From: Mycoplasmatota bacterium | GTDB taxonomy: Bacteria; Bacillota_I; Bacilli_A; Haloplasmatales; Haloplasmataceae | Direction of reading: 5' to 3' | DNA: 64,000 nt | NCBI GenBank assembly: GCA_018394295.1 | Contig: CP074573.1 | Location: 868,001 to 932,000 of the forward strand | In this document: in pieces, positions 651-12,038 of the stretch | How positions within the stretch are numbered: position 1 is the first letter of the stretch | Layout of the letters: every line of letters starts with the position of its first letter | Notes under the pieces: generated by a model | The model's input: the letters and a program-made list of their open reading frames with translations, nothing else | Databases searched by the model: none | What the model was told of the DNA's origin: nothing | Position numbers and translations under genes: made by a program

Positions 651-1583
651 ATGAAAAATATTTGTGAGTTACTAAACATTAAGTATCCAATCATTCAAGG
701 AGGAATGGCTAATATTGCAACTCATGTTTTAGCATCAGCAGTATCAAATGCTGGGGGATTAGGATTGATTGGGGCTGGTGGAAATGATGCAGAAACAGTA
801 CGCCAAGAAATCATTAAATGTAAACAACTAACTGATAAACCATTTGGTGTAAATATTATGTTAATGTCACCTCATGCGAAAGACATTGCCCAAATGGTAA
901 TTGAAGAAGGGGTTCAAGTTGTTACAACTGGTGCAGGAAACCCTGGACCTTATATGGAAAATTGGAAACAGGCTGGAATCGTTGTTATTCCTGTTGTACC
1001 AAGTGTAGCGTTAGCGAAGCGAATGGAAAGAGCAGGAGCTGATGCGGTAATTGCTGAGGGTACAGAATCAGGAGGACATGTAGGAGAATTAACAACGATG
1101 GCTCTTGTACCTCAAGTAGTAGATGCTATTTCTATACCAGTTATTGCAGCTGGAGGAATTGCTGATCAAAGACAAGTTCTAGCAGCATTTGCATTAGGTG
1201 CTAAAGGTATACAAGTAGGAACAATCCTTCTAGCAAGTAATGAATGTCCTATTCATGACAATTATAAAATGAAAGTAATAGATGCAAATGATACGAGTAC
1301 AGTTGTAACAGGTCGCAAGGCAGGGGCTCCTGTACGTGTTTTAAAAAATAGAATGGCAAGAGAATATTTGCGCATGACCGATAAAGGGGCTACCTTAGAA
1401 GATTTAGAAAAATTGACATTAGGGTCATTAAGACGAGCTGTTTTTGATGGTGATGTTGATAAAGGATCATTCATGGCAGGACAAGTGGCAGGGATGATTA
1501 AAGAAGTGAAATCAATTAAACAAATTATTGAAGATTTATTTTTAGAGGTAGATAATTATAAAAATAAATTAGAAATCTTATAG
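651..1583 (+). CDS. fabK: FMN-dependent enoyl-ACP reductase II
   Basis: Reduces trans-2-enoyl-ACP in the last step of each elongation cycle. The 310-residue protein has the 2-nitropropane dioxygenase/FabK TIM-barrel pattern: YPIIQGGMA near residue 12, GGLGLIGAGG near 35, GTESGGHVGE near 135 and AAGGIAD near 165. Length matches FabK. It is preceded by a strong site (ATAGGAGG). FabK replaces the FabI/FabL/FabV type enoyl reductases, which in Bacillota usually means intrinsic triclosan tolerance (family knowledge, not tested here). In streptococci and clostridia an acpP gene often sits between fabH and fabK; here none fits in the 9-nt gap. Confidence 0.96.
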   Translation: MKNICELLNIKYPIIQGGMANIATHVLASAVSNAGGLGLIGAGGNDAETVRQEIIKCKQLTDKPFGVNIMLMSPHAKDIAQMVIEEGVQVVTTGAGNPGPYMENWKQAGIVVIPVVPSVALAKRMERAGADAVIAEGTESGGHVGELTTMALVPQVVDAISIPVIAAGGIADQRQVLAAFALGAKGIQVGTILLASNECPIHDNYKMKVIDANDTSTVVTGRKAGAPVRVLKNRMAREYLRMTDKGATLEDLEKLTLGSLRRAVFDGDVDKGSFMAGQVAGMIKEVKSIKQIIEDLFLEVDNYKNKLEIL

Positions 1584-1591
1584 GTGAAGAT

Positions 1592-2521
1592 ATGAAAACG
1601 TTAGCGATTTTGTTTTCTGGTCAAGGATCTCAATATATTGGTATGGGACAAGACTTTTATGAAAAATACGATGAAGTAAAAGATTTATATAAAAAAGCTA
1701 ATCAAGTTTTAGGTTATGATTTAACCAAAATTTGTTTTGAAGAAAATAAGTTAATAAACCAAACACAATATACTCAACCAAGTGTATTAGTAACATCACT
1801 TGGAATTTATACTGCCATATTAAAAGAGATGAAGATAAATCCCAAGGTTTTAGCAGGATTTAGTTTAGGAGAATATAGTGCCTTATATGCATCAGGAATT
1901 TTTGATTTTGAGAAGATTGTGTATCTCGTAAAACAAAGAGCGAATTACATGGAAAAATGTGCAACCGCATATCCAGGTAAAATGGCAGCGATTATTGGTA
2001 TGAAACAAGATGTTTTAACAAATATTTGTGAGGAAGTTGCCAAAACACATGGCATAGTTCAAATCGCAAATTATAATTGTCCTAATCAATTAGTCATTGG
2101 AGGAAAAAAAGAAGCAGTTGAAATGGTATGTGCACAAGCAAAAGAAAAAGGTGCAAGACGTGCCGTTGTTTTAAATGTAAGTGGTGGTTTTCATACATCA
2201 CTCATGAGTGATGCAGCTAATGAAATGTATGAAGAAGTGATTAAGACTCCTTACAATAAACCAGCTATTGATATCATCATGAATGCAACTGCTGATTATC
2301 TACCGTTTAATCAATTACCACAATTAATGAAAAGACAAATTGAATCCTCAGTTTATTTTGAGGATACCATAAAAAAAATGATTGCTGATGGGATCGATAC
2401 CTTTATTGAAATTGGTCCTGGGAATGTCTTAAGTGGATTTGTTCGAAAAATAGATCGGACTAAAACCGTTATTTCAATTGATAAATTAAGTGATTTAGAA
2501 AGGGTGAAATCATGGATTTAA
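1592..2521 (+). CDS. fabD: malonyl-CoA:ACP transacylase
   Basis: Moves malonyl groups from CoA to ACP to feed elongation. The 309-residue protein shows the entry motif FSGQGSQYIGMG near residue 8, the nucleophile elbow GFSLGEYSAL (Ser about 91) and the catalytic His in SGGFHTSLM (about 201), followed by the usual FIEIGPGNVLSGF. The start is set by AGGTGAAGAT just upstream. It lies 8 nt after fabK and overlaps fabG by 10 nt, so translation is probably coupled. Confidence 0.97.
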   Translation: MKTLAILFSGQGSQYIGMGQDFYEKYDEVKDLYKKANQVLGYDLTKICFEENKLINQTQYTQPSVLVTSLGIYTAILKEMKINPKVLAGFSLGEYSALYASGIFDFEKIVYLVKQRANYMEKCATAYPGKMAAIIGMKQDVLTNICEEVAKTHGIVQIANYNCPNQLVIGGKKEAVEMVCAQAKEKGARRAVVLNVSGGFHTSLMSDAANEMYEEVIKTPYNKPAIDIIMNATADYLPFNQLPQLMKRQIESSVYFEDTIKKMIADGIDTFIEIGPGNVLSGFVRKIDRTKTVISIDKLSDLERVKSWI

Positions 2522-3258
2522 CTAACAAAATTGCGATTGTCACAGGTGGCGCAACCGGTATTGGTCGTGAAATCAGTTTGAAATTAGCATCTTATGGTGC
2601 TACAGTTGTTGTCAATTATAATTCAAGTAGTAATGCTTCAGAATCTTTAGTTGAAGAAATAAAACAAATGGGAAAAGAAGCATATGCGATAAAAGCCAAT
2701 ATCTCTAATTATGATGAGGCACAGATGCTCATTAATTCAACTATTGAAAAATATGGTAAAGTAGATATTTTAGTAAATAATGCAGGAATTACAGCAGATT
2801 CTTTACTATTACGGATGAAAGAAAATGATTTTGATAAAGTCATAGATGTGAATTTAAAAGGTACATGGAATTGTTGTAAACATATAGCAAAGCATATGTC
2901 AAAACAACGTAGTGGTAAAATTATTAATATTTCAAGTGTTGTTGGAATTATGGGGAATATCGGTCAAACAAATTATTGTGCTTCAAAAGCAGGGATTATT
3001 GGTTTAACAAAATCACTTGCTAGAGAACTAGCTAAACGCAATATTTGTTGTAACGCTGTTGCACCTGGATTCATTGAAACTAAAATGACAGAAAGTTTAA
3101 GTGAAGAAATAAGAAAAGAATATACACGAAATATTCCATTAGATAGATTAGGAAAAGCAAGTGATGTGGCTAATTTAGTTGCTTTCTTAAGTAGCCATTT
3201 ATCAGATTATATAACTGGGCAAGTCATCAATTGTGATGGTGGACTTGTAATGTATTAA
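2512..3258 (+). CDS. fabG: 3-oxoacyl-ACP reductase
   Basis: NADPH-dependent reduction of 3-oxoacyl-ACP. A 248-residue short-chain dehydrogenase with the cofactor motif TGGATGIG near residue 12, NNAG near 88, ISSVVG (catalytic Ser about 142) and the Tyr-x-x-x-Lys pair in YCASK (about 155-159). The C-terminal end GQVINCDGG is characteristic of FabG. The start codon lies inside the end of fabD, behind an AAAGGGTGA site. In Bacillus fabD-fabG sits next to plsX; here that pair has been joined to the fabH-K-F-Z operon instead. Confidence 0.96.
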   Translation: MDLTNKIAIVTGGATGIGREISLKLASYGATVVVNYNSSSNASESLVEEIKQMGKEAYAIKANISNYDEAQMLINSTIEKYGKVDILVNNAGITADSLLLRMKENDFDKVIDVNLKGTWNCCKHIAKHMSKQRSGKIINISSVVGIMGNIGQTNYCASKAGIIGLTKSLARELAKRNICCNAVAPGFIETKMTESLSEEIRKEYTRNIPLDRLGKASDVANLVAFLSSHLSDYITGQVINCDGGLVMY

Positions 3259-3275
3259 AAGGATAGGTGATAAAA

Positions 3276-4514
3276 ATGAAAAGACGTGTTGTTGTGACTG
3301 GTTTAGGAGCTGTTACTCCTGTTGGCAATAATGTTCATGATATGTGGAATTCAATTAAAAGTGGTAAAAATGGAATCACTCCGATTACTCAATTTGATAC
3401 ATCTAATATGAAAGTAAAAATTGCTGGTGAAGTTAAAAATTTAGAAATTGAAAAATATCTTGATAAACGATCTGCTAAACGTTTAGACCGTGCGATTGTT
3501 TTGGGTTTAATAGCAGCAGGTGAAGCATATCAAGATGCAAATTTAGAAAATGCTGAAATTGATCCTTACCGTTTTGGGACATTTGTATCAAGTGGTATTG
3601 GAGGATTAGGTACAATTAATGATGAATCAAAAAAAGCACATGAGAAAGGTGGAGACAGGTTATCGCCATTTTTTATCCCAAATTCAATTGTGAATTTAAT
3701 TGGAGGAAATATTGCGATAAAATATGGTGCTAAAGGACCTGCTATACCTGTTGTTACAGCTTGTTCAGCAGCAACAAATTCAATTGGTGAAGCATTCCGT
3801 TATATACGTGATGGGTATTGTGATATCACTTTTGCTGGTGGAGCTGAGGCAGCAATTAATGAGTTAGGTGTCGGTGGATTTACGACAATGAAAGCACTAA
3901 ATACATCAAATGATGTTAATAATGCCTCTATTCCATTTGATAATAGACGTAGTGGATTTGTGATTGCTGAGGGAGCAGGTGTGATTATATTAGAAGAATA
4001 TGAACACGCTAAAAAAAGAGGGGCAAAGATTTACGGTGAAATGGTTGGTTATGGAACAACTTGTGATGCCTTCCATATTACAGCTCCAGATGAAACTGCT
4101 TTAGGAATAGCAAATTGTATTAAAATCGCATTAGATGATGCTAATATTAGCCCAGAACAAGTTGATTATATTAACGCACATGGGACATCAACACCACATA
4201 ATGATAGATTAGAAACACTAGGAATAAAAAAAGCATTAGGTGAGGCTGCTTATCAAATAAATGTTAGTTCAACCAAATCAATGACAGGGCATGCTTTAGG
4301 AGCAATTGGTGGAATAGAAGCTATAATAACGGTTAAAGCAATTGAGAATAATCTTGTACCACCAACTATTAATTATCAAGAAAAAGATGAAAATTGTGAT
4401 TTAAATTATACTCCAAATCAAGCAGTTAATAGAGATATTAATTATGCTTTTAGTAATAGTGCTGGTTTTGGTGGACAAAATGCTTGTATTGTTTTCAAAA
4501 AATTTGAAGATTAA
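3276..4514 (+). CDS. fabF: 3-oxoacyl-ACP synthase II
   Basis: Elongating condensing enzyme. The 412-residue thiolase-fold protein carries the catalytic Cys in VTACSAATNS (about 163) and the two His in INAHGTSTPHND and KSMTGHALGA, then the C-terminal SNSAGFGGQNA. I place the start at the ATG at 3276 because the upstream in-frame GTG at 3267 is part of the ribosome site AGGTGAT; the chosen start gives the usual FabF length and beginning (MKRRVVVTGLG). It follows fabG by 17 nt and precedes fabZ by 9 nt. Confidence 0.96.
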   Translation: MKRRVVVTGLGAVTPVGNNVHDMWNSIKSGKNGITPITQFDTSNMKVKIAGEVKNLEIEKYLDKRSAKRLDRAIVLGLIAAGEAYQDANLENAEIDPYRFGTFVSSGIGGLGTINDESKKAHEKGGDRLSPFFIPNSIVNLIGGNIAIKYGAKGPAIPVVTACSAATNSIGEAFRYIRDGYCDITFAGGAEAAINELGVGGFTTMKALNTSNDVNNASIPFDNRRSGFVIAEGAGVIILEEYEHAKKRGAKIYGEMVGYGTTCDAFHITAPDETALGIANCIKIALDDANISPEQVDYINAHGTSTPHNDRLETLGIKKALGEAAYQINVSSTKSMTGHALGAIGGIEAIITVKAIENNLVPPTINYQEKDENCDLNYTPNQAVNRDINYAFSNSAGFGGQNACIVFKKFED

Positions 4515-4523
4515 GGTCGTGAA

Positions 4524-4955
4524 ATGATGGTATTAAATAGTAAAGAAATTCAAGAAATAATTCCTCATCGTTACCCATTCTTACTTGTTGACCGAATTAT
4601 TGAACTAGAATCAGGAAAAAAAGCGATTGGGATAAAATGTGTATCAAATAATGAAATGCATTATTTAGGACATTTTCCAGAAGAACCAGTAATGCCAGGG
4701 GTTTTAATTATTGAATCATTGGCACAGGTTGGAGCTGTTGCGATTTTATCATTACCTGAAAATAAAGGGAAAATTGCCTATTTTGCTGGAATAAGATCAG
4801 CTAAATTTAGATATAAAGTTACCCCAGGCGATGTTTTAAGATTAGAAACAGAATTAATTAAGGTTCGTGGAAGTATGGGAATCGGAAAAGCGATTGCTTA
4901 TGTAGGAGATAAAGTTGCTTGTGAGGCAGAATTAACATTTGCGATTGGTAAATAA
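4524..4955 (+). CDS. fabZ: 3-hydroxyacyl-ACP dehydratase
   Basis: Dehydrates 3-hydroxyacyl-ACP in the elongation cycle. A 143-residue hotdog-fold protein with [13 protein letters not shown] near residue 13 and the active-site block [16 protein letters not shown], in which the His and the Glu are the catalytic pair. A second ATG at 4527 is equally possible as start. Genes for acetyl-CoA carboxylase, which often follow fabZ in Bacillota, are absent here; a biotin ligase and a biotin transporter come next instead. Confidence 0.96.
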
Positions 4956-4957
4956 AG

Positions 4958-5509
4958 ATGAGAATAGAATTTTTACAGTATTTAATTGAATTTGAAATAA
5001 TTGACTCTACGAATGAATATTTAAAACACAATTATCAAAAATTGCCTAACTTTACGACAGTTAAAGCAAATTATCAGACAAAGGGTCATGGTCAATTCGG
5101 ACGAAATTGGGAGTCTAATTATAATGAAAACTTAATTTTTTCACTCCTAATTAAAAAGGATTTACCTTTTATGTCGGATGATATTAATCCAATTATCGTA
5201 AGTGCGATTTTTAATACACTAGATGAATTTGATATAGATGCTCGTTACAAAGAACCAAATGATATATATATTGGAAATAAAAAAATTGCTGGTATCTTAA
5301 TTGAAACAAAATATGATAATAAACAATTAGAATATATGATTATTGGTGTCGGTTTAAATGTTAACCAAGAAAAATTTGAAACCCCAACTGCCATCTCATT
5401 AAAACAGATTTTAAATAAAGATATAAATATTGACCATGTCTTTAGCAGATTGTTAAAACATTTATCTAATAATGTTTTATTAGCGAATTTAATGAAAATA
5501 GGTGATTAA
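4958..5509 (+). CDS. birA: short biotin-[acetyl-CoA-carboxylase] ligase
   Basis: Attaches biotin to the carboxyl carrier protein through biotinyl-AMP. The adenylate-binding loop is GHGQFGRNW near residue 46, a variant of the usual GRGRxGRxW with His and Gln replacing Arg. NDIYIGNKKIAGILIE near residue 98 contains the conserved catalytic Lys. At 183 residues it has no N-terminal DNA-binding domain, so it cannot be a BirA-type repressor, and it is also shorter than most monofunctional ligases (about 230-250), so the small C-terminal SH3-like domain seems missing. Starts 2 nt after fabZ and abuts bioY. Function is likely; full activity is inferred. Confidence 0.85.
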   Translation: MRIEFLQYLIEFEIIDSTNEYLKHNYQKLPNFTTVKANYQTKGHGQFGRNWESNYNENLIFSLLIKKDLPFMSDDINPIIVSAIFNTLDEFDIDARYKEPNDIYIGNKKIAGILIETKYDNKQLEYMIIGVGLNVNQEKFETPTAISLKQILNKDINIDHVFSRLLKHLSNNVLLANLMKIGD

Positions 5510-5510
5510 G

Positions 5511-6065
5511 ATGACTGTTAGGAGATTGACCACTATACCGCTATTTACTGCATTGATGATTGTATTTACCATTGTATTCTACATCCCAGTACCTATATTA
5601 AATATAAATGTGACGTTACAAACCTTTGTAGTTATACTCGCTGGGTTGCTCTTACGTCCAATAGATGCTTTTATAAGTATACTTTTATATGTATTGATAG
5701 GTGCTTTAGGATTCCCGGTTTTTACTGGGTATAGAGGAGGACTTGAAGCAATATTTGGTCCTACTGGTGGATTTATTCTTTCTTTTCCCATTGCTGCTTA
5801 TTTAATTAGTTTGTTTCATTTTGGGAAGCATACATTTTCTAAAAATTTGATAATATCAACAATCTTTGGGATCATTCTAATCTATTTTATAGCAATCATG
5901 TGGTTAGATTATTACACGAATAGATCACTTGGGAAAATTCTGTATGGAATGTTAATCTATATACCATTTGATATTGTAAAAGTTGTATTGGCTTCAATCA
6001 TTAGTTTACGAATTGAGTCAGTTCAGATGTCTATGACAGAAACTAGTATTAATAGAGCTATCTAA
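5511..6065 (+). CDS. bioY: biotin ECF transporter S component BioY
   Basis: Membrane protein that binds biotin and, with the shared energy-coupling proteins EcfA/A'/T (not in this window), imports it. The 184-residue protein has about six hydrophobic segments and the BioY hallmark around GALGFPVFTG and GGLEAIFGPTGGFI (residues about 65-90). The start is the ATG at 5511, one base after the birA stop; the earlier GTG at 5502 belongs to the AGGTGAT ribosome site. With birA it turns the operon into a fatty-acid plus biotin supply unit, which makes sense because biotin is the cofactor of acetyl-CoA carboxylase. Confidence 0.93.
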   Translation: MTVRRLTTIPLFTALMIVFTIVFYIPVPILNINVTLQTFVVILAGLLLRPIDAFISILLYVLIGALGFPVFTGYRGGLEAIFGPTGGFILSFPIAAYLISLFHFGKHTFSKNLIISTIFGIILIYFIAIMWLDYYTNRSLGKILYGMLIYIPFDIVKVVLASIISLRIESVQMSMTETSINRAI

Positions 6066-6083
6066 TCAAGATAGCTCTTTTTT
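6054..6083 (+). terminator. terminator of the fab-birA-bioY operon
   Basis: Perfect 10-bp stem AGAGCTATCT (6054-6063) with AGATAGCTCT (6069-6078), 5-nt loop, followed by a T run. The stem overlaps the bioY stop codon. Confidence 0.93.
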
Positions 6084-6415
6084 ACTCTATTAAGGGATTA
6101 CTTTAAATTTATTTACATATAAATTACCTTTTTGACGTTTGTTTAATCACTAATCAATAATGTAATTTTTATGTTTGTATATTTTCAAAAAAAATCTAAA
6201 AAATCTTTACTTTTTAAAAGAAAGCGTATAAAATTTAAATGAAAATAATATTCATTTTTTAGTAAAAAATGAAATAAAGTTTCGAAGTGTAAGTAAATTT
6301 TATGGTTAAAAAAAAGAGATGATTTCGATTAGATGTTAGATAAAATTTATCTAATTGCAATTACAAACATTACCACATATTAAATAACTAATATAAAATT
6401 GTTGAGGTGTTTAGG
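6084..6415. other. intergenic region ahead of the DUF4127 operon
   Basis: About 330 bp of very AT-rich DNA without an open reading frame of note. It holds two perfect inverted repeats: TTCATTTTTT/AAAAAATGAA with a 3-nt spacer (6251-6273), and TTAGATAAA/TTTATCTAA with a 1-nt spacer (6336-6354). Between them GAAATAAAGTTTC (6271-6283) is an imperfect palindrome. No clear -35/-10 pair stands out. The repeats are plausible operator sites for the RpiR regulator encoded in the operon (inference). Confidence 0.6.
6336..6354. promoter_or_regulatory. 19-bp palindrome, candidate operator
   Basis: TTAGATAAA and its exact complement TTTATCTAA flank one A, 62 bp before the DUF4127 start codon. The short spacer and lack of a T run make a dimeric-regulator binding site more likely than a terminator. 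Which regulator binds is not shown by the sequence. Confidence 0.45.
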
Positions 6416-7939
6416 ATGAAGAAAATTATTTTTATACCATTAGACGAAAGACCATGTAATTATCATTTTCCTTCAAAATTGTTTGACCAAGAGGAATTAA
6501 ATATTGTAAAACCTGATATATCAATGATGGGAAATAAAAAGGAAAGTGGTGATACAGATAAAATAGCACAATGGCTTTTAAATGAAGTAAAGGAAGCAGA
6601 TGGATTAGTACTTTCAATAGATACGTTACTTTATGGTGGAATTGTACCATCACGCTTACATCATTTATCTGTGGATGAAATTAAATCTAAATTATCAATT
6701 TTAGAAGATATAAAAAAAGTTAATCCCAAATTAATAATATATGCATTCCATCTCATTATGAGATGTCCACGTTATTCAAGTGATGATGAAGAACCAAGTT
6801 ATTATGAAACTTATGGAAAAGAGATTTTTTCATTAGGATATCTAAATCATAGAATCTCTCTAGGACTTGAAAAAGATGAGTCAGCAAAACAGAAAGTAAT
6901 AGAATTAGAAAATTCAATTGATAAAGATGCTTTAGATGATTATTTAACACGTCGTAAAATAAATCTTTTTGCGAATAAAATGAGTATAGATTACTTAAAA
7001 AATAATGTAATAGATTTCTTAATTGTTCCACAAGATGATTCAGCACCATATGGTTACACAGCAATTGATCAAGAAGAGATAAGAAAATATATTTTTGAAA
7101 CAAAACAACAATTAAATGCCTATATGTATCCAGGAGCAGATGAAGTTGGAATGACTTTAATTATGCGTTTACTTAACCAACTCAATCAAAGAAAACCATT
7201 AATCTATGTTAAATATTCAAGTACTTTAGCAGATGTAGTGATACCGAATTATGAAGATCGTATTTTAAATGAAAGTGTTAAGTATCAAATATTAGCAAGT
7301 GGTGGCTTATTGATTGATAATATTGAGATGGCTGATATAATATTAATGATAAATGCCCCAGCAGATTACATAATAGGTGCTAATCAATTTTTCCAGAGAC
7401 ATCAGGGATATACTGTCAAAAGAAATTTAGTTGAATTTGTTGAGTTTATTGATTATGCTATTCATGTGTTGAAAAAACCAGTCGCAATTGGTGATGTAGC
7501 TTTTGGAAATGGATCTGACATAGAATTGATTCAATTATTAAATGATAGAGAGTTATTAATGAAGTTGGCTAGTTATGCAGCTTGGAATACTTCATCAAAT
7601 ACATTAGGAACAAGTATACCGCAAGCGATGTACTATTTATTAACTCAAAAAATAAATAAATCATTTTTAGCACTCCGCTATGTTGAAGATGCAGGTTATT
7701 GTGGTTTTGTTCGACAATACGTTTGTGATCATGACTTAGAACCATTAGGTTTTAATTATTTTGATGTTAAAGAAAAGAGTGGGATAGCATCAAAGATAGT
7801 CCAAAAAAGGTTAGAAACTTTTGTACAAGAACATTTATCAACCATCGAGAAAAACATTAAGATTAAAAGATGTTATATGCCTTGGAGTCGTATGTTTGAG
7901 GTTGGTTTGGACGTTGATTATATTGAAAATGAACGGTAA
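6416..7939 (+). CDS. DUF4127 family protein
   Basis: A 507-residue protein opening with KKIIFIPLDERPCNYHFP, the signature of the DUF4127 family, whose biochemical role is not established. Other conserved-looking blocks are DTLLYGGIVPSRLHH (about 65-80), HLIMRCPRYSSDDEEPSYY (about 113-131), VPQDDSAPYGYTAID (about 205) and YPGADEVGMTL (about 238). Acidic and His residues in these blocks suggest a metal-dependent or sugar-processing enzyme, but that is inference. No signal peptide, so cytoplasmic. Start set by GAGGTG six bases before ATG 6416. It heads an apparent operon with a ROK protein and an RpiR regulator, pointing to amino-sugar or glycan metabolism. Confidence 0.85.
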   Translation: MKKIIFIPLDERPCNYHFPSKLFDQEELNIVKPDISMMGNKKESGDTDKIAQWLLNEVKEADGLVLSIDTLLYGGIVPSRLHHLSVDEIKSKLSILEDIKKVNPKLIIYAFHLIMRCPRYSSDDEEPSYYETYGKEIFSLGYLNHRISLGLEKDESAKQKVIELENSIDKDALDDYLTRRKINLFANKMSIDYLKNNVIDFLIVPQDDSAPYGYTAIDQEEIRKYIFETKQQLNAYMYPGADEVGMTLIMRLLNQLNQRKPLIYVKYSSTLADVVIPNYEDRILNESVKYQILASGGLLIDNIEMADIILMINAPADYIIGANQFFQRHQGYTVKRNLVEFVEFIDYAIHVLKKPVAIGDVAFGNGSDIELIQLLNDRELLMKLASYAAWNTSSNTLGTSIPQAMYYLLTQKINKSFLALRYVEDAGYCGFVRQYVCDHDLEPLGFNYFDVKEKSGIASKIVQKRLETFVQEHLSTIEKNIKIKRCYMPWSRMFEVGLDVDYIENER

Positions 7940-7981
7940 AGTAATTAATTAAATACAAATAAAGATTAGGAAGTGATTATT

Positions 7982-8884
7982 ATTAAAGTTATAGGAATTG
8001 ATATAGGTGGTACACAGATAAAAGGAGCTATCATCGATAATAGCGGGAATTGCAATTATATTACCAAAGTAGATACAAATACATCTCAAGGTAGAGAAGG
8101 ACTATTAAATGGATTGAATCAAGTTATAGAAACCTTACTATCTAAAAACGAATTAGTAGAAGGTATTGGGATAGGTTCTGCTGGTAGAATTGATTATATA
8201 AACGGTGTTGTGTATTATGCAACAGATAATTTACCAGGATGGAGTGGATTTCATTTACAGGAATATGTTGAAGAGACTTACCATCTACCAACAGTTGTTG
8301 AAAATGACGCTAATGCAGCTTTAATTGGTGAAAAGTGGCAAGGAGTAGGTAAAGGTTATAAGGATATCATCATGATCACTTTAGGGACTGGTGTTGGTGG
8401 AGCAAGTATTTTAAATGATCAATTATATCAAGGATCACATTTTAGTGCGACTGAATATGGTCATGTAATATTGTATCCAAATGGATATCCATGTAATTGT
8501 GGGCAATCAGGGTGTGTTGAACAATATATATCAGGAACTGCTTTAGTTAAACGTGTAAAGAAAGCTGGTATTTCAATTAACCATGGTAAAGAACTATTCG
8601 ATCATATTAAACAGGGTAATGAAAAAGCAAAAGATGTTCTAAATGAGTATGTTAATGATATAGCAATAACTATTCATAATATTAATTTAAGTTATGACCC
8701 TAAATTAGTTATCATTGGTGGAGGGGTTGTTGATTCAAAGGATGAATGGTGGCATCTATTACAAGAAAAACTATCATTAAATCCTCAAATACAATCAGAT
8801 GTAAAACCAGCCATTTTAGGAAATAAAGCTGGTTTATACGGTGCTAGTAAACTAGCAATTGACCGATTAACTGAAGGTAAATAA
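7982..8884 (+). CDS. ROK family sugar kinase/regulator, apparent ATT start
   Basis: ROK proteins phosphorylate glucose or amino sugars. Visible: phosphate loop KVIGIDIGGTQIKGAI at the N-terminus, VENDANAALIGE with the catalytic Asp, TLGTGVGGASIL, and the zinc motif CNCGQSGCVEQ. There is no separate DNA-binding domain, so a kinase is more likely than a repressor. Start problem: an in-frame stop (TAG 7967) leaves only GTG 7973, which lies inside the ribosome site AGGAAGTGAT. The codon at the expected position, 4 nt after GTGAT and matching the family N-terminus, is ATT at 7982. Likely acts with the DUF4127 and RpiR genes on one sugar substrate. Confidence 0.85.
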   Translation: MKVIGIDIGGTQIKGAIIDNSGNCNYITKVDTNTSQGREGLLNGLNQVIETLLSKNELVEGIGIGSAGRIDYINGVVYYATDNLPGWSGFHLQEYVEETYHLPTVVENDANAALIGEKWQGVGKGYKDIIMITLGTGVGGASILNDQLYQGSHFSATEYGHVILYPNGYPCNCGQSGCVEQYISGTALVKRVKKAGISINHGKELFDHIKQGNEKAKDVLNEYVNDIAITIHNINLSYDPKLVIIGGGVVDSKDEWWHLLQEKLSLNPQIQSDVKPAILGNKAGLYGASKLAIDRLTEGK

Positions 8885-8924
8885 CCTTAGATTAGGAATA
8901 TTATGATGAAAGTATGGTGGTGAA

Positions 8925-9746
8925 ATGGTTAATAGTATAGCTAGTAGAATAGATGCAGTACAAGATAAAATGACTAAAACAGATAAAATATTTTTAGAAT
9001 ATTTGAAAAGCAGCAATTATAGTGACATTGTTTATCTATCTATAACGGAACTATCAGAATTATCTGGTGTGGGAGAGGCGACTATTTTACGTTTTTGCCG
9101 TAAATTAGGATTAAAGGGTTATCAAGAATTTAAGTTGGTTTTAGCACAAGAATTACCAAAAAATCGCTCCACTGAAAGTGAAGGATTTTTTGGAATAATA
9201 GCTGATAATATGATTTCTGTGATAACAGAAACAAAGGATATTATTGATGAAAAATATATAAATGAGGCTGTTGAAATGTTGGTGAATAGTAGAAGAAAAT
9301 ATTTCTTCGGACTTGGGAATTCAAGAATTGTAGCAATGGAAGCAAAAGCAAGACTTATGAGAATAGGTTTTCATGTAGATGCACTTTTGGATTCGCATTT
9401 TATGTCTATGACTACATCAACCTTAACCTCTGAAGATGTAATTGTTTTAGTAAGTTTATCTGGAAGTACAAAAGATATTTTAGAAGTCGCAGAAATCGCA
9501 AAAGAAAATGGTGTTAAGATTATCGTTATTACTAATTATTCTAAATCACCAGTCATTCGATATGCAGACATTATTTTATACACAGTTAGAAAAGAGGGAC
9601 CTTTAGAAGGTGGGTCTTTAATTTCAAAGATTTCACAACTATATCTAATTGATGTTCTGTGTACAGGTATTACTTTATATATTAATAGTGATGCTAACAA
9701 CATGCTTGAGAAAACAGCAAGAGCTGTAGTCAATAAAATACTATAG
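8925..9746 (+). CDS. MurR/RpiR family transcriptional regulator (HTH + SIS)
   Basis: A 273-residue regulator. The N-terminal RpiR helix-turn-helix is seen in SITELSELSGVGEATILRFCRKLGLKGYQEFK written here in part as GVGEATILRFCRKLGL (about 45-60). The SIS domain (about 110-250) has YFFGLGNSRIVAMEAKARL, VLVSLSGSTKDILEVAE and IVITNYSKSPV, which bind phosphosugars. Such proteins sense a sugar phosphate, here plausibly the product of the ROK kinase, and control their own operon. Start ATG 8925 follows GGTGGTGA. The inverted repeats before the operon and before the glycosidase gene are candidate targets. Confidence 0.93.
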   Translation: MVNSIASRIDAVQDKMTKTDKIFLEYLKSSNYSDIVYLSITELSELSGVGEATILRFCRKLGLKGYQEFKLVLAQELPKNRSTESEGFFGIIADNMISVITETKDIIDEKYINEAVEMLVNSRRKYFFGLGNSRIVAMEAKARLMRIGFHVDALLDSHFMSMTTSTLTSEDVIVLVSLSGSTKDILEVAEIAKENGVKIIVITNYSKSPVIRYADIILYTVRKEGPLEGGSLISKISQLYLIDVLCTGITLYINSDANNMLEKTARAVVNKIL

Positions 9747-9796
9747 AAATAAAGAACTCTTGTTAGAACAGCTCTACCATATTTATATATATTTAA

Positions 9797-9836
9797 AAAG
9801 TTGGAATTTTCATTAAGAAAGTTCTAACTTTTTTTT
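9797..9836 (+). terminator. terminator after rpiR-type regulator
   Basis: Stem AAAGTTGGAA (9797-9806) with TTCTAACTTT (9822-9831), one G-T pair, followed by a run of eight T. Confidence 0.85.
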
Positions 9837-9906
9837 AAAACAGGAATAAATTAAAAGAGTATTCTTTTGTGAATAGTTGATTTTTACTATGGAGATTATA
9901 TCCATT

Positions 9907-9940
9907 ATTTTGGAAATAATTAAGAAATTATTTCCAAAAT
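9907..9940. repeat. 15-bp perfect inverted repeat upstream of the glycosidase gene
   Basis: ATTTTGGAAATAATT (9907-9921) and its exact complement (9926-9940) are separated by AAGA. No T run follows, so a terminator is unlikely. It lies 165 bp before the phosphodiester glycosidase start and contains GGAAAT..ATTTCC half-sites, compatible with a dimeric regulator such as the RpiR protein encoded next door (inference). Confidence 0.7.
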
Positions 9941-10104
9941 GATTGACTAAATGGATGAAAACCTTTACAATTTAAGTATGTTTCTTATTTAATGTATTTT
10001 TATAGGTTTCAGATGAGTGGTAGGTAATATCTGAAATTAATAAATTATTATGATTAGAGGGGATAAACCCTCATCTTTGTTGAGATACTTTGGGAGGTAT
10101 AAGA

Positions 10105-11622
10105 ATGAAATATTTTAAAATTTGTATTATTTTTGTTGCATTATTTCTTTTAAACATCATGATTGTTTCTGCTAGGCCTTTTGATTTAGGCGATCTATTA
10201 AATAAAGAAACAAAGGATGTAAATGGTATTACTTATAAAAGTATAGAGCTAGTAGATTCGAATAATTACCCACAAAAAATATTTTATGCGGATTTTTTAT
10301 CAGGACTTAGCAGTAAATATAAAATGGTTATTCATCACGTTGAAAATAATAATGATAATTTTGTAGGTTCTACAGTCGTGGATATCGCAAATGATTATGA
10401 AACCAAAACTGGTAATAAGGTAATGGCTGCGGTAAACGGTGACTTTTTTATGGGTGACCATACACCATGTGGGTATTATATCAAAGATGGTGTTATCATA
10501 AGAGATGCACCAAATTCTTATATGCATGAAATTGGGTTTGATAATTTAGGAAATGTAGTGGTTGGAAATATTGAAGGTTTTGAATATCAAATCAAAGTAT
10601 ATACAGAAGATGGCGTTGAAAATTTTGTAGTTGATAAGTATAATGAGATTCCAGAGGATGGAGAAATTGCCCTTATGGAACCTTCTAAATTTTCTTCAAT
10701 GGATGAGCCTAATTCAGCGAAGTATCTAATTCAGTTTGAAGATCAACAAGCAACTGAATTTTCATATCCAATGAATGGGATTGCATATCGTTTAGCACGA
10801 GGTAAAGTTGTTAGTGATGAATCATTACCATTACCAGCAGGTCATTTAGGAATTAACATTAAAGGTGATAATGAAATTTCTCAATTCTTTTTTAATAATT
10901 TCAAATATAACACTCAAATTGAAGTAGTCAAAGTTCCAAAAGGTGATTTTAATATGCCATGGGTAATTGGTGGTCGTCATATATTAATGCAAAAAGGAAC
11001 TCTATTACCAAAAGGAGCACCTTCAGCAGATCAATTAGCACCACGTACAACAATTGGTATCACTACCGAAGGAAAATACTTTGTAATGGTTATTGATGGA
11101 AGACAACCTGAATATAGTAAAGGAATTACTATCGCTCAACAAGGCCAATTAGCTAAAGATTTAGGCGCATATACTGCGATAGAGATTGATGGAGGCGGTT
11201 CATCTACGTTCTTATTACGACTTGATGATGTATTAACTGTAATGAATAAACCTTCAGATGGTCATTTGAGAAATGTGTCTAATGCGGTATTGATTGTTGA
11301 AAAAGATGAAGATGAAATTATTACAACGACAACAACAGAAGAAACAACGACAACAGAAGAAACGACAACAACAGAAGAAACAACGACAACAGAAGAAACA
11401 ACAACTGAAGAAATAACAACAACAGAAGAATCGACAACAACAGAAGAAACCACGACAACTGAAGAAACGACCACAACAGAATTGTTGACAACGACAGACA
11501 GTACTAATTTAAATGATGATACTAATGATAAAGATTTTAATGTATTATATATTATCATCCCTCTTGTTGTATTAGGTGGGGTATCACTAACAGTTGGTGT
11601 TATTCGTCATAAACGTGTATAA
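10105..11622 (+). CDS. membrane-anchored phosphodiester glycosidase family protein with Thr-Glu stalk
   Basis: A 505-residue exported protein. Signal peptide: ICIIFVALFLLNIMIVSA, cleavage likely before RPFDL. The catalytic region is the phosphodiester glycosidase (NAGPA, PF09992-like) domain, with AAVNGDFFMGDHTPCGYY near residue 112 and RTTIGIT, VIDGRQPEYSKGIT and EIDGGGSSTFLL near 315-370. Human NAGPA and bacterial relatives remove GlcNAc from phosphodiesters. A stalk of TTTTEE-type repeats (about 405-465) then leads to a C-terminal membrane helix and RHKRV tail; no LPXTG is present, so it is a membrane anchor. Start ATG 10105 follows GGGAGGT. Likely acts on cell-surface glycans; its link with the preceding sugar operon is inferred. 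Confidence 0.88.
   Translation: MKYFKICIIFVALFLLNIMIVSARPFDLGDLLNKETKDVNGITYKSIELVDSNNYPQKIFYADFLSGLSSKYKMVIHHVENNNDNFVGSTVVDIANDYETKTGNKVMAAVNGDFFMGDHTPCGYYIKDGVIIRDAPNSYMHEIGFDNLGNVVVGNIEGFEYQIKVYTEDGVENFVVDKYNEIPEDGEIALMEPSKFSSMDEPNSAKYLIQFEDQQATEFSYPMNGIAYRLARGKVVSDESLPLPAGHLGINIKGDNEISQFFFNNFKYNTQIEVVKVPKGDFNMPWVIGGRHILMQKGTLLPKGAPSADQLAPRTTIGITTEGKYFVMVIDGRQPEYSKGITIAQQGQLAKDLGAYTAIEIDGGGSSTFLLRLDDVLTVMNKPSDGHLRNVSNAVLIVEKDEDEIITTTTTEETTTTEETTTTEETTTTEETTTEEITTTEESTTTEETTTTEETTTTELLTTTDSTNLNDDTNDKDFNVLYIIIPLVVLGGVSLTVGVIRHKRV
11319..11490 (+). repeat. Thr/Glu-coding tandem repeat
   Basis: An imperfect 15- to 18-bp unit built from ACAACAGAAGAA-like words is repeated about nine times inside the glycosidase gene, encoding the Thr-Glu stalk. 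Most variation is at third codon positions (ACA/ACG/ACC/ACT), so the protein repeat is conserved while the DNA drifts. Confidence 0.9.
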
Positions 11623-11673
11623 TGCTAGAAGGTAAAATTTTCTTTTCTAAATAGTTTTATAAATAATAATATA

Positions 11674-11707
11674 AATAATCCAATCGCTTGAATACGATTG
11701 GGTTATT
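11674..11707 (+). terminator. terminator after the glycosidase gene
   Basis: Stem of 13 bp, AATAATCCAATCG (11674-11686) with CGATTGGGTTATT (11695-11707), one G-T pair, then a T-rich tail. Confidence 0.8.
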
Positions 11708-12038
11708 TATTTTGATGTAATCTCTATACAAATCTATAAAAGATATATTTTAAATATATTTGGATAATGGTAGAATTAAGGTAGGGCCACAATAAAATAA
11801 TAAATAAATATGAGATGAACAATTTTATGAGTATTAATAAATTATAGTAGATTTGAATACCGGTTCTTTTTTATAGTGTGTGTGATATATTGAATATATA
11901 AGATTCTATTTTATGGTTATAAAATTGTCGATAGATTAAGTCTGTAGATTTTTCTAATCTACTTTTTTTTACTAAAATATGTTATAATAATTATCATAAG
12001 AGTATATATAGGTGACCAAAAGTAATAGGGATGATAAG
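11708..12038. other. intergenic region before recG, with an orphan terminator
   Basis: About 330 bp with no convincing protein gene. At 11944-11970 a hairpin (GTAGATT, 5-nt loop, AATCTAC) is followed by eight T: a good intrinsic terminator with no gene directly upstream, so a short non-coding RNA or recG leader may end here. A TATAAT box at about 11982 could serve recG. Confidence 0.5.
11944..11970 (+). terminator. orphan intrinsic terminator upstream of recG
   Basis: 7-bp stem 11944-11950/11956-11962 and T8 tail. The nearest upstream gene already has its own terminator at 11674-11707, so this one ends a separate, unidentified transcript. Confidence 0.6.

Follow-up and report, generated by a model that had tools for sequence, protein, structure and literature searches.

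A DUF4127-ROK-RpiR-NAGPA locus of a Mycoplasmatota bacterium and a possible route for N-acetylmannosamine salvage without sialic acid

Among described systems, those closest to the locus considered here include the lower half of the nan (sialic acid) catabolic pathway, made up of NanK, NanE and NagA with an RpiR-type regulator. They also include the recycling operons for N-acetylmuramic acid (MurNAc) and peptidoglycan (NamZ, NagZ, MupG, AnmK, MurQ, MurR), the chitobiose/cellobiose operons of the phosphotransferase system (PTS), and the solved members of the NAGPA phosphodiester glycosidase family. The locus lies in a 64,000-nucleotide stretch of DNA (the window; contig CP074573.1, G000:C1:868001-932000, G+C 28.3%) from the 3.29-Mb, AT-rich genome of a Mycoplasmatota bacterium of the family Haloplasmataceae. 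Its genes encode a DUF4127 protein, a ROK sugar kinase, an RpiR-type regulator and a NAGPA, and they very probably form part of a pathway for the salvage of N-acetylmannosamine (ManNAc).

The likeness to the nan pathway lies in a NanE above its curated cut-off, a ROK protein near NanK, an RpiR protein near 4ivn, and a nagA gene in the same genome. Here, however, there is no NanA-type lyase, DUF4127 and hexosaminidases stand in its place, and the kinase is below the NanK cut-offs. Like the MurNAc operons, this would be a modular wall-sugar salvage system with an RpiR regulator, and one family member carries NAGPA inside such an operon; but the window and a second, "sister" cluster of the genome lack MurNAc enzymes, and NanE points to ManNAc. 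Five DUF4127 loci of other genomes use a PTS EIIC (in the one examined, of the lactose/cellobiose family), as chitobiose/cellobiose operons do, whereas DUF4127 would be the cytosolic cleaver and NanE replaces the enzymes for N-acetylglucosamine (GlcNAc) or glucose. Finally, the window's NAGPA shares with the solved members of its family the stretches around NGD, PRT.(I/V)G, DG(R/Q) and DGGGS, and differs in being bacterial, membrane-anchored and of low identity.

The best explanation of the whole, to which we give roughly an even chance, is ManNAc salvage that does without sialic acid and combines a surface NAGPA, import, and release by DUF4127. Outside the cell, the membrane-anchored NAGPA would cleave a sugar-1-phosphodiester; the likeliest target is the GlcNAc-1-phosphate bond by which ManNAc-GlcNAc wall polymers are attached to muramic acid. 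The ATP-binding cassette (ABC) transporters of the sister cluster would import the oligosaccharides, and in the cytosol DUF4127 would free ManNAc or ManNAc-6-phosphate, probably by hydrolysing a beta-linked ManNAc-GlcNAc-type disaccharide, along with GH20/GH84 hexosaminidases. The window's ROK would then make ManNAc-6-phosphate, the NanE of the sister cluster would turn this into GlcNAc-6-phosphate, and NagA would continue from there, with the RpiR proteins sensing a phosphosugar. In other species, uptake may use the ABC or PTS genes beside DUF4127. If this is true, the DUF4127 family gains a precise activity and bacterial NAGPA a candidate substrate. The literature searched contains nothing on DUF4127/PF13552 or on an N-acetylmannosaminidase, and no account of the breakdown and re-use of the ManNAc-containing linkage in Gram-positive wall polymers.

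The window locus and its sister cluster

The four genes were identified by Pfam profiles and are as follows.

6407-7939, + strand: DUF4127 protein of 510 amino acids (PF13552, 529 bits against a cut-off of 27, residues 7-501), no signal peptide
7973-8884, + strand: ROK sugar kinase (PF00480, 228.9 bits against a gathering score of 22.9)
8925-9746, + strand: RpiR-type regulator (PF01418, HTH_6, and PF01380, SIS)
10105-11622, + strand: NAGPA phosphodiester glycosidase of 505 amino acids (PF09992, 106.9 bits against a gathering score of 25)

This confirms the gene set and order given in an earlier note on this DNA, made from the sequence alone. The gaps are 33 bp between DUF4127 and ROK, 40 bp between ROK and RpiR, and 343 bp between RpiR and NAGPA.

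The genome carries three DUF4127 genes, one in the window and two in the sister cluster, which is a single long co-directional run of 34 kb at about 256-291 kb of the genome. Its first part holds RpiR, NanE, a solute-binding protein, a surface Ig-like protein, a second NAGPA and two sets of ABC permeases. Its later part holds two GHL10 genes, GNAT, DUF4127, GH20C, the other DUF4127, another binding protein and a flavin adenine dinucleotide (FAD) oxidoreductase, with what we take to be a DUF5696 gene before the GHL10 pair and a GDSL gene before the FAD oxidoreductase. A closely similar arrangement is found in three further genomes of the family. The clusters are complementary, with ROK but no NanE in the window and NanE but no ROK in the sister cluster. 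That NanE (G000 C1:257300) is over the curated NCBIfam cut-off (NF002231, 292 against 189), and nagA is present in the genome. The earlier note found no transporter in the group and left uptake unexplained, which holds for the window but not for the genome, since the ABC transporters are in the sister cluster. In a genome of the same genus, nagA (G005:C53:103973-105082) is directly beside a DUF4127 gene (C53:105230-106714), linking DUF4127 to GlcNAc-6-phosphate metabolism.

The solved chain nearest to the window's ROK is 5nck, an N-acetylmannosamine kinase (NanK). The protein is below the glucokinase cut-off (213 against 260), and since the only other full ROK of the genome passes it (302 against 260), the window's is the genome's only non-glucokinase ROK. 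Its gene context and the proximity of 5nck suggest that it works like a ManNAc kinase. The window's RpiR matches best, at 39-48% identity, the RpiR proteins encoded in other DUF4127 loci and in the sister cluster, and its nearest solved entry is 4ivn.

The genome, which is 98.75% complete, contains a single DHDPS-family gene, beside aspartokinase/asd-type genes, and no sialic-acid lyase gene; the encoded protein bears the TTGE motif, presumably that of DapA-type enzymes. A phmmer search of the fetched DUF4127 loci with the dapA of this genome as query (E 1e-5) likewise gave no DHDPS-family protein. We read this as ManNAc salvage that is free of NanA and does not start from sialic acid. A rival reading makes DUF4127 an alternative sialic-acid (nonulosonate) lyase that takes the place of NanA and supplies ManNAc: the lower half of the nan pathway consists of NanE and a NanK-like kinase, NanA was not found, and a SASA esterase adjoins one locus (L142). 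We consider this quite unlikely, as DUF4127 recurs together with hexosaminidases and NAGPA, and in five loci with a PTS of lactose/cellobiose type, and no sialidase is found among the annotated partner families, although no family-wide sialidase search was made.

Partners of DUF4127 in other genomes

The loci compared are 79 from named genomes (out of the top 80 among 84 confirmed) together with seven family stretches, 86 after removal of duplicates, including the window and the sister cluster. The dropped rows are L001-L003 and L005-L013, which are short and repeat regions fetched at full length, and L097 and L098, contigs of L056 and L026. Two further entries, L139 and L145, whose contigs are those of L063 and L051, count towards a set of 24 loci from the class and are left out of the later partner tally (62 NanE loci and the split into PTS and ABC types). 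With partner profiles built from the loci themselves, NanE is found in 51 loci, RpiR in 49, ROK in 38, ABC permeases in 53 and the FAD oxidoreductase in 54, and more rarely GHL10 in 19, GH84 in 15, GH20C in 11 and NAGPA in 9, in counts that are not independent because many of the 79 loci come from closely related Paenibacillus. An earlier count based on BLAST gave the same picture. One locus, L074 (Paenibacillus sp. D2_2), has its DUF4127 in two frames (9998-11526), probably from a frameshift or sequencing error.

A less biased sample is provided by 296 genomes of the class, of which 25 have DUF4127, 93 NAGPA and 50 NanE. NanE occurs in 19/25 genomes with DUF4127 and in 31/271 without it (p 7e-12), and NAGPA in 20/25 and 73/271, respectively (p 2e-7), although these p values overstate the evidence since the genomes are related to one another. 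The contig with DUF4127 holds 18 of the 19 NanE genes, 1.5-25 kb away and in 14 cases within 6.5 kb. The 24 loci from genomes outside the family include 13 with NanE, three with AGE (see below), four with NAGPA and four with PTS EIIC, and in L136 a single run brings together GHL10, NanE, GH84, DUF4127, NAGPA, RpiR, ROK and the FAD oxidoreductase. GDSL/SASA esterases and GNAT proteins are also encoded near DUF4127 in other loci. The grouping of DUF4127 with its partners is not accidental, and its conservation with ROK and RpiR, which the earlier note proposed to check, extends to NAGPA. DUF4127 genes without these partners, which that note named as a refutation, do exist among the 86 loci; they weaken any universal claim and leave the association within the class intact. 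All seven loci of Selenomonas ruminantium (L080-L086) are of this kind: their DUF4127 proteins, only 28-29% identical, are encoded among other conserved neighbours and none of the partners, and possibly have another function.

Three loci that lack NanE carry N-acylglucosamine 2-epimerase (AGE) close to DUF4127, with no ROK listed. NanE and AGE are unrelated, but both lead from a ManNAc skeleton to a GlcNAc one; the substrate expected of AGE is unphosphorylated ManNAc. Two of the three AGE proteins were compared: the nearest solved proteins are N-acylglucosamine 2-epimerases (1e-86 and 1e-92), ahead of cellobiose 2-epimerase (1e-18 and 1e-19), and neither protein reaches the curated cut-off of 600 for AGE (scores of 306 and 311). 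Because the two epimerases replace each other and share this step only, the DUF4127 loci appear to deliver ManNAc. This supports the amino-sugar salvage first proposed for the locus and makes ManNAc the most likely sugar, since NanE or AGE accompanies DUF4127. It does not favour the order of steps proposed with it, in which an amino sugar freed by NAGPA is phosphorylated by ROK before DUF4127 converts the resulting sugar phosphate. That order agrees with the gene order in the window, but the reaction that follows the kinase already belongs to NanE, whose gene is present in this genome and generally lies next to DUF4127, and the AGE loci list no ROK and have an epimerase expected to take the unphosphorylated sugar. 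We hold it to be improbable; DUF4127 probably acts before the kinase, on an imported oligosaccharide.

Five minimal loci of PTS type (L137, L140, L142, L143 and L079) all hold DUF4127, NanE, RpiR, EIIC and an HAD phosphatase. None of the five has ROK, GH84, GH20C, GHL10, NAGPA or the FAD oxidoreductase, and GDSL, present in two, is the only other partner family. The EIIC of one of them falls into the lactose/cellobiose family (367 against 236 bits), a group of importers of beta-linked disaccharides. Because no recognised glycosidase remains in these loci, DUF4127 is the natural candidate for the cleavage. We infer that it cleaves there, although an enzyme encoded elsewhere in the genome or by an unannotated neighbour could do so instead. 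ROK is present in 26/48 loci with ABC transporters and NanE against 0/5 PTS loci (p 0.05), which is only suggestive of mutual exclusion between ROK and PTS.

The DUF4127 protein and a possible wall-glycan substrate

DUF4127 is spread over Bacilli, Clostridia, Negativicutes and Deinococcus-type genomes. An alignment of 55 of its proteins has 16 invariant positions, including D13, R15, R83, R119, D210, D211, D245, D363, N394, N398, D428 and R495. The structure model (mean pLDDT 95.8) consists of two Rossmann/flavodoxin-like domains, and many of the conserved residues come just after predicted strands, as expected of a cleft between two domains. Structure matches are middling, with top Z values of 9.4 (122 residues) and 8.7 (163 residues), and in each half are to single common alpha/beta domains of a mixed set of proteins (PBPs, response regulators, MiaB-type and SGNH proteins); we assign no function from the fold. 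A relationship to NamZ finds no support (hhalign probability 0.1%, in a weak test with a single NamZ sequence).

The N-domain aligns with SGNH esterases over about 160 residues (Z 7.8-8.7), tied with unrelated folds. This is one of several points that agree with a different role, in which DUF4127 cuts no glycosidic bond and removes a decoration, perhaps the 4,6-pyruvyl ketal that ManNAc can carry or some other substituent, while hexosaminidases free the ManNAc. The GDSL/SASA esterases and GNAT proteins near DUF4127 would suit such a role, and DUF4127 operons are plentiful among the fetched loci of Paenibacillus, whose secondary wall polymers contain pyruvylated ManNAc according to passages of PMC6801904. 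The five PTS-type loci, on the other hand, would then hold no glycosidase for a disaccharide, and by general chemistry a 4,6-ketal would block the 6-phosphate added by the PTS. We see removal of a decoration as unlikely, if the least unlikely of the alternatives considered. From its context, DUF4127 is predicted to be a ManNAc-releasing enzyme, a role we find somewhat more probable than not; that it is a true glycosidase is an evenly balanced inference. It is speculative that DUF4127 represents a novel family of (6-phospho-)beta-N-acetylmannosaminidases in the cytosol, acting in a pathway (NAGPA outside, import by ABC or PTS, DUF4127, then ROK/NanE or AGE) dedicated to eating the ManNAc-GlcNAc-1-P-MurNAc linkage of teichoic-acid-type wall polymers.

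The window's NAGPA has an N-terminal hydrophobic segment, the NAGPA domain at residues 266-397, a Thr/Glu-rich linker and a C-terminal hydrophobic anchor ending in RHKRV. The linker (11320-11490 of the window) is a low-complexity repeat of TTTEE type, and an open reading frame on its reverse strand (11262-11558) is probably spurious. The NGD, PR-T/S and DGGGS motifs align with solved 3ohg and with the NAGPA chains 6pki/6pkg, and 11 aligned bacterial NAGPA proteins have 18 invariant columns. By a crude test of N-terminal hydrophobicity, an export-like N-terminus is found in 94% of 17 NAGPA and 92-100% of binding proteins, in 7% of 120 DUF4127 proteins and in 0-2% of GH84, GH20C, NanE, ROK and RpiR proteins. 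Judged from these sequences, NAGPA is most likely outside the cell, at the surface as the earlier note supposed, and DUF4127 inside.

NAGPA probably belongs to the same pathway as DUF4127. In the family, the two co-occur in the same 5/8 genomes and 7/8 NAGPA genes lie within DUF4127 clusters; in the loci set, NAGPA is co-directional with DUF4127 in 13/13 cases, five of them adjacent with gaps of 2-50 bp. These figures argue against NAGPA being a separate unit that just adjoins the DUF4127-ROK-RpiR operon of the window, for which the 343 bp that separate it from RpiR and contain a repeat and a promoter-like site, the 73/271 class genomes with NAGPA and no DUF4127, and the many fetched Paenibacillus loci (the majority) with no NAGPA nearby could be cited. 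We rate such a separation as unlikely.

What NAGPA and DUF4127 would attack together is suggested by wall chemistry. NAGPA-family enzymes release phosphodiester-linked sugars (in passages of PMC12419801), and published passages describe a phosphodiester joining O6 of MurNAc to O1 of GlcNAc in Gram-positive wall polymers (PMC7759979), ManNAc-beta-1,4-GlcNAc next to the phosphodiester linkage in wall teichoic acid (PMC7086022), and, for the secondary polymers of Paenibacillus and Bacillus, ManNAc-GlcNAc repeats modified by pyruvylation, O-acetylation and de-N-acetylation (PMC6801904, PMC7759979). The partner genes read like a list of tools for such a glycan: NAGPA for the sugar-1-phosphate, GDSL/SASA for O-acetyl groups, GNAT for free amines, GH84/GH20 for GlcNAc, and NanE/ROK for ManNAc. 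In one family member, L129 (G002:C8:75000-94000), the NAGPA gene lies inside a MurNAc-recycling operon (1468-10533) with NamZ, GH3, MupG, BadF kinase, AnmK, a SIS protein and RpiR, which suggests that bacterial NAGPA acts on wall glycans. The ManNAc-GlcNAc-1-P-MurNAc linkage as the substrate is still the least certain step, and we propose it tentatively.

Several observations weigh against ManNAc release by DUF4127 from such a polymer. To our knowledge DUF4127 is a widespread bacterial family with no assigned function, and we know of no activity for it; searches with the whole model and with the N-domain gave no clear relative and none that points to glycosidases. NanE, ROK and RpiR are all missing from 23/86 loci, and in the class 6/25 genomes with DUF4127 lack NanE and 5/25 lack NAGPA. 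The window's ROK is below the curated NanK cut-offs of NCBIfam (NF003461, 160 against 283; NF047821, 153 against 450). The HAD phosphatase of every PTS-type locus (Cof-type in the one examined) has a substrate that is unexplained there, and the FAD oxidoreductase (PF12831; for example L004:17175-18764), present in 49/62 NanE loci, has no role in the ManNAc scheme; it has no solved relative at 1e-5, and its NCBIfam matches cover the FAD-binding N-terminus only. Finally, the TagA/WecG ManNAc transferase is found in 0/8 family genomes, which have penicillin-binding-protein transpeptidases in 8/8. Because of this lack of TagA/WecG, we favour scavenging of the walls of other bacteria: turnover of the cell's own wall in the classical manner is improbable, and a foreign source would be needed for the polymer.

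Repeats and neighbouring genes

The other features of the region are listed below.

6251-6273, no strand: inverted repeat TTCATTTTTT/AAAAAATGAA (also given as TTCATTTTTTA/TAAAAAATGAA), within chance
6336-6354, no strand: inverted repeat TTAGATAAA/TTTATCTAA, within chance
9904-9943, no strand: inverted repeat upstream of NAGPA, 18-bp arms with one mismatch, 4-bp loop
9943-9971, + strand: promoter-like TTGACT-17-TACAAT abutting the repeat at 9904-9943, a consensus match only
6054-6078, + strand: terminator-like stem
11671-11710, + strand: terminator-like stem 3' of NAGPA

The earlier note had described inverted repeats before both transcription units. All three are present at the letters given, but the two upstream ones are within chance: the spacer before DUF4127 is very AT-rich, and arms of at least 9, the measure for the repeat at 6336-6354, appear in 38/100 dinucleotide shuffles and arms of at least 10, that for the repeat at 6251-6273, in 11/100. 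With equal arms thus reached by shuffling, the repeats at 6251-6273 and 6336-6354 were rejected as operators. The repeat at 9904-9943, with a 15-bp perfect core at 9907-9940, is the only one of the three beyond chance, as arms of at least 12 appear in 0/100 shuffles. It is a candidate operator of the NAGPA gene, and RpiR might act there, though we would not expect it. The sister cluster showed no copy of this repeat, and a single operator common to both clusters was therefore rejected. Promoter-like sites are not in excess in the region (42 found against 43.6 expected).

The stem at 6054-6078 closes the upstream bioY gene and sets the locus apart from it. Together with a biotin-ligase-like gene and a short-chain dehydrogenase (all by Pfam), bioY looks like part of a fatty-acid synthesis operon. 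Downstream of NAGPA come a gene that we take to encode a RecG-like helicase and, presumably, plsX/rnc-like genes.

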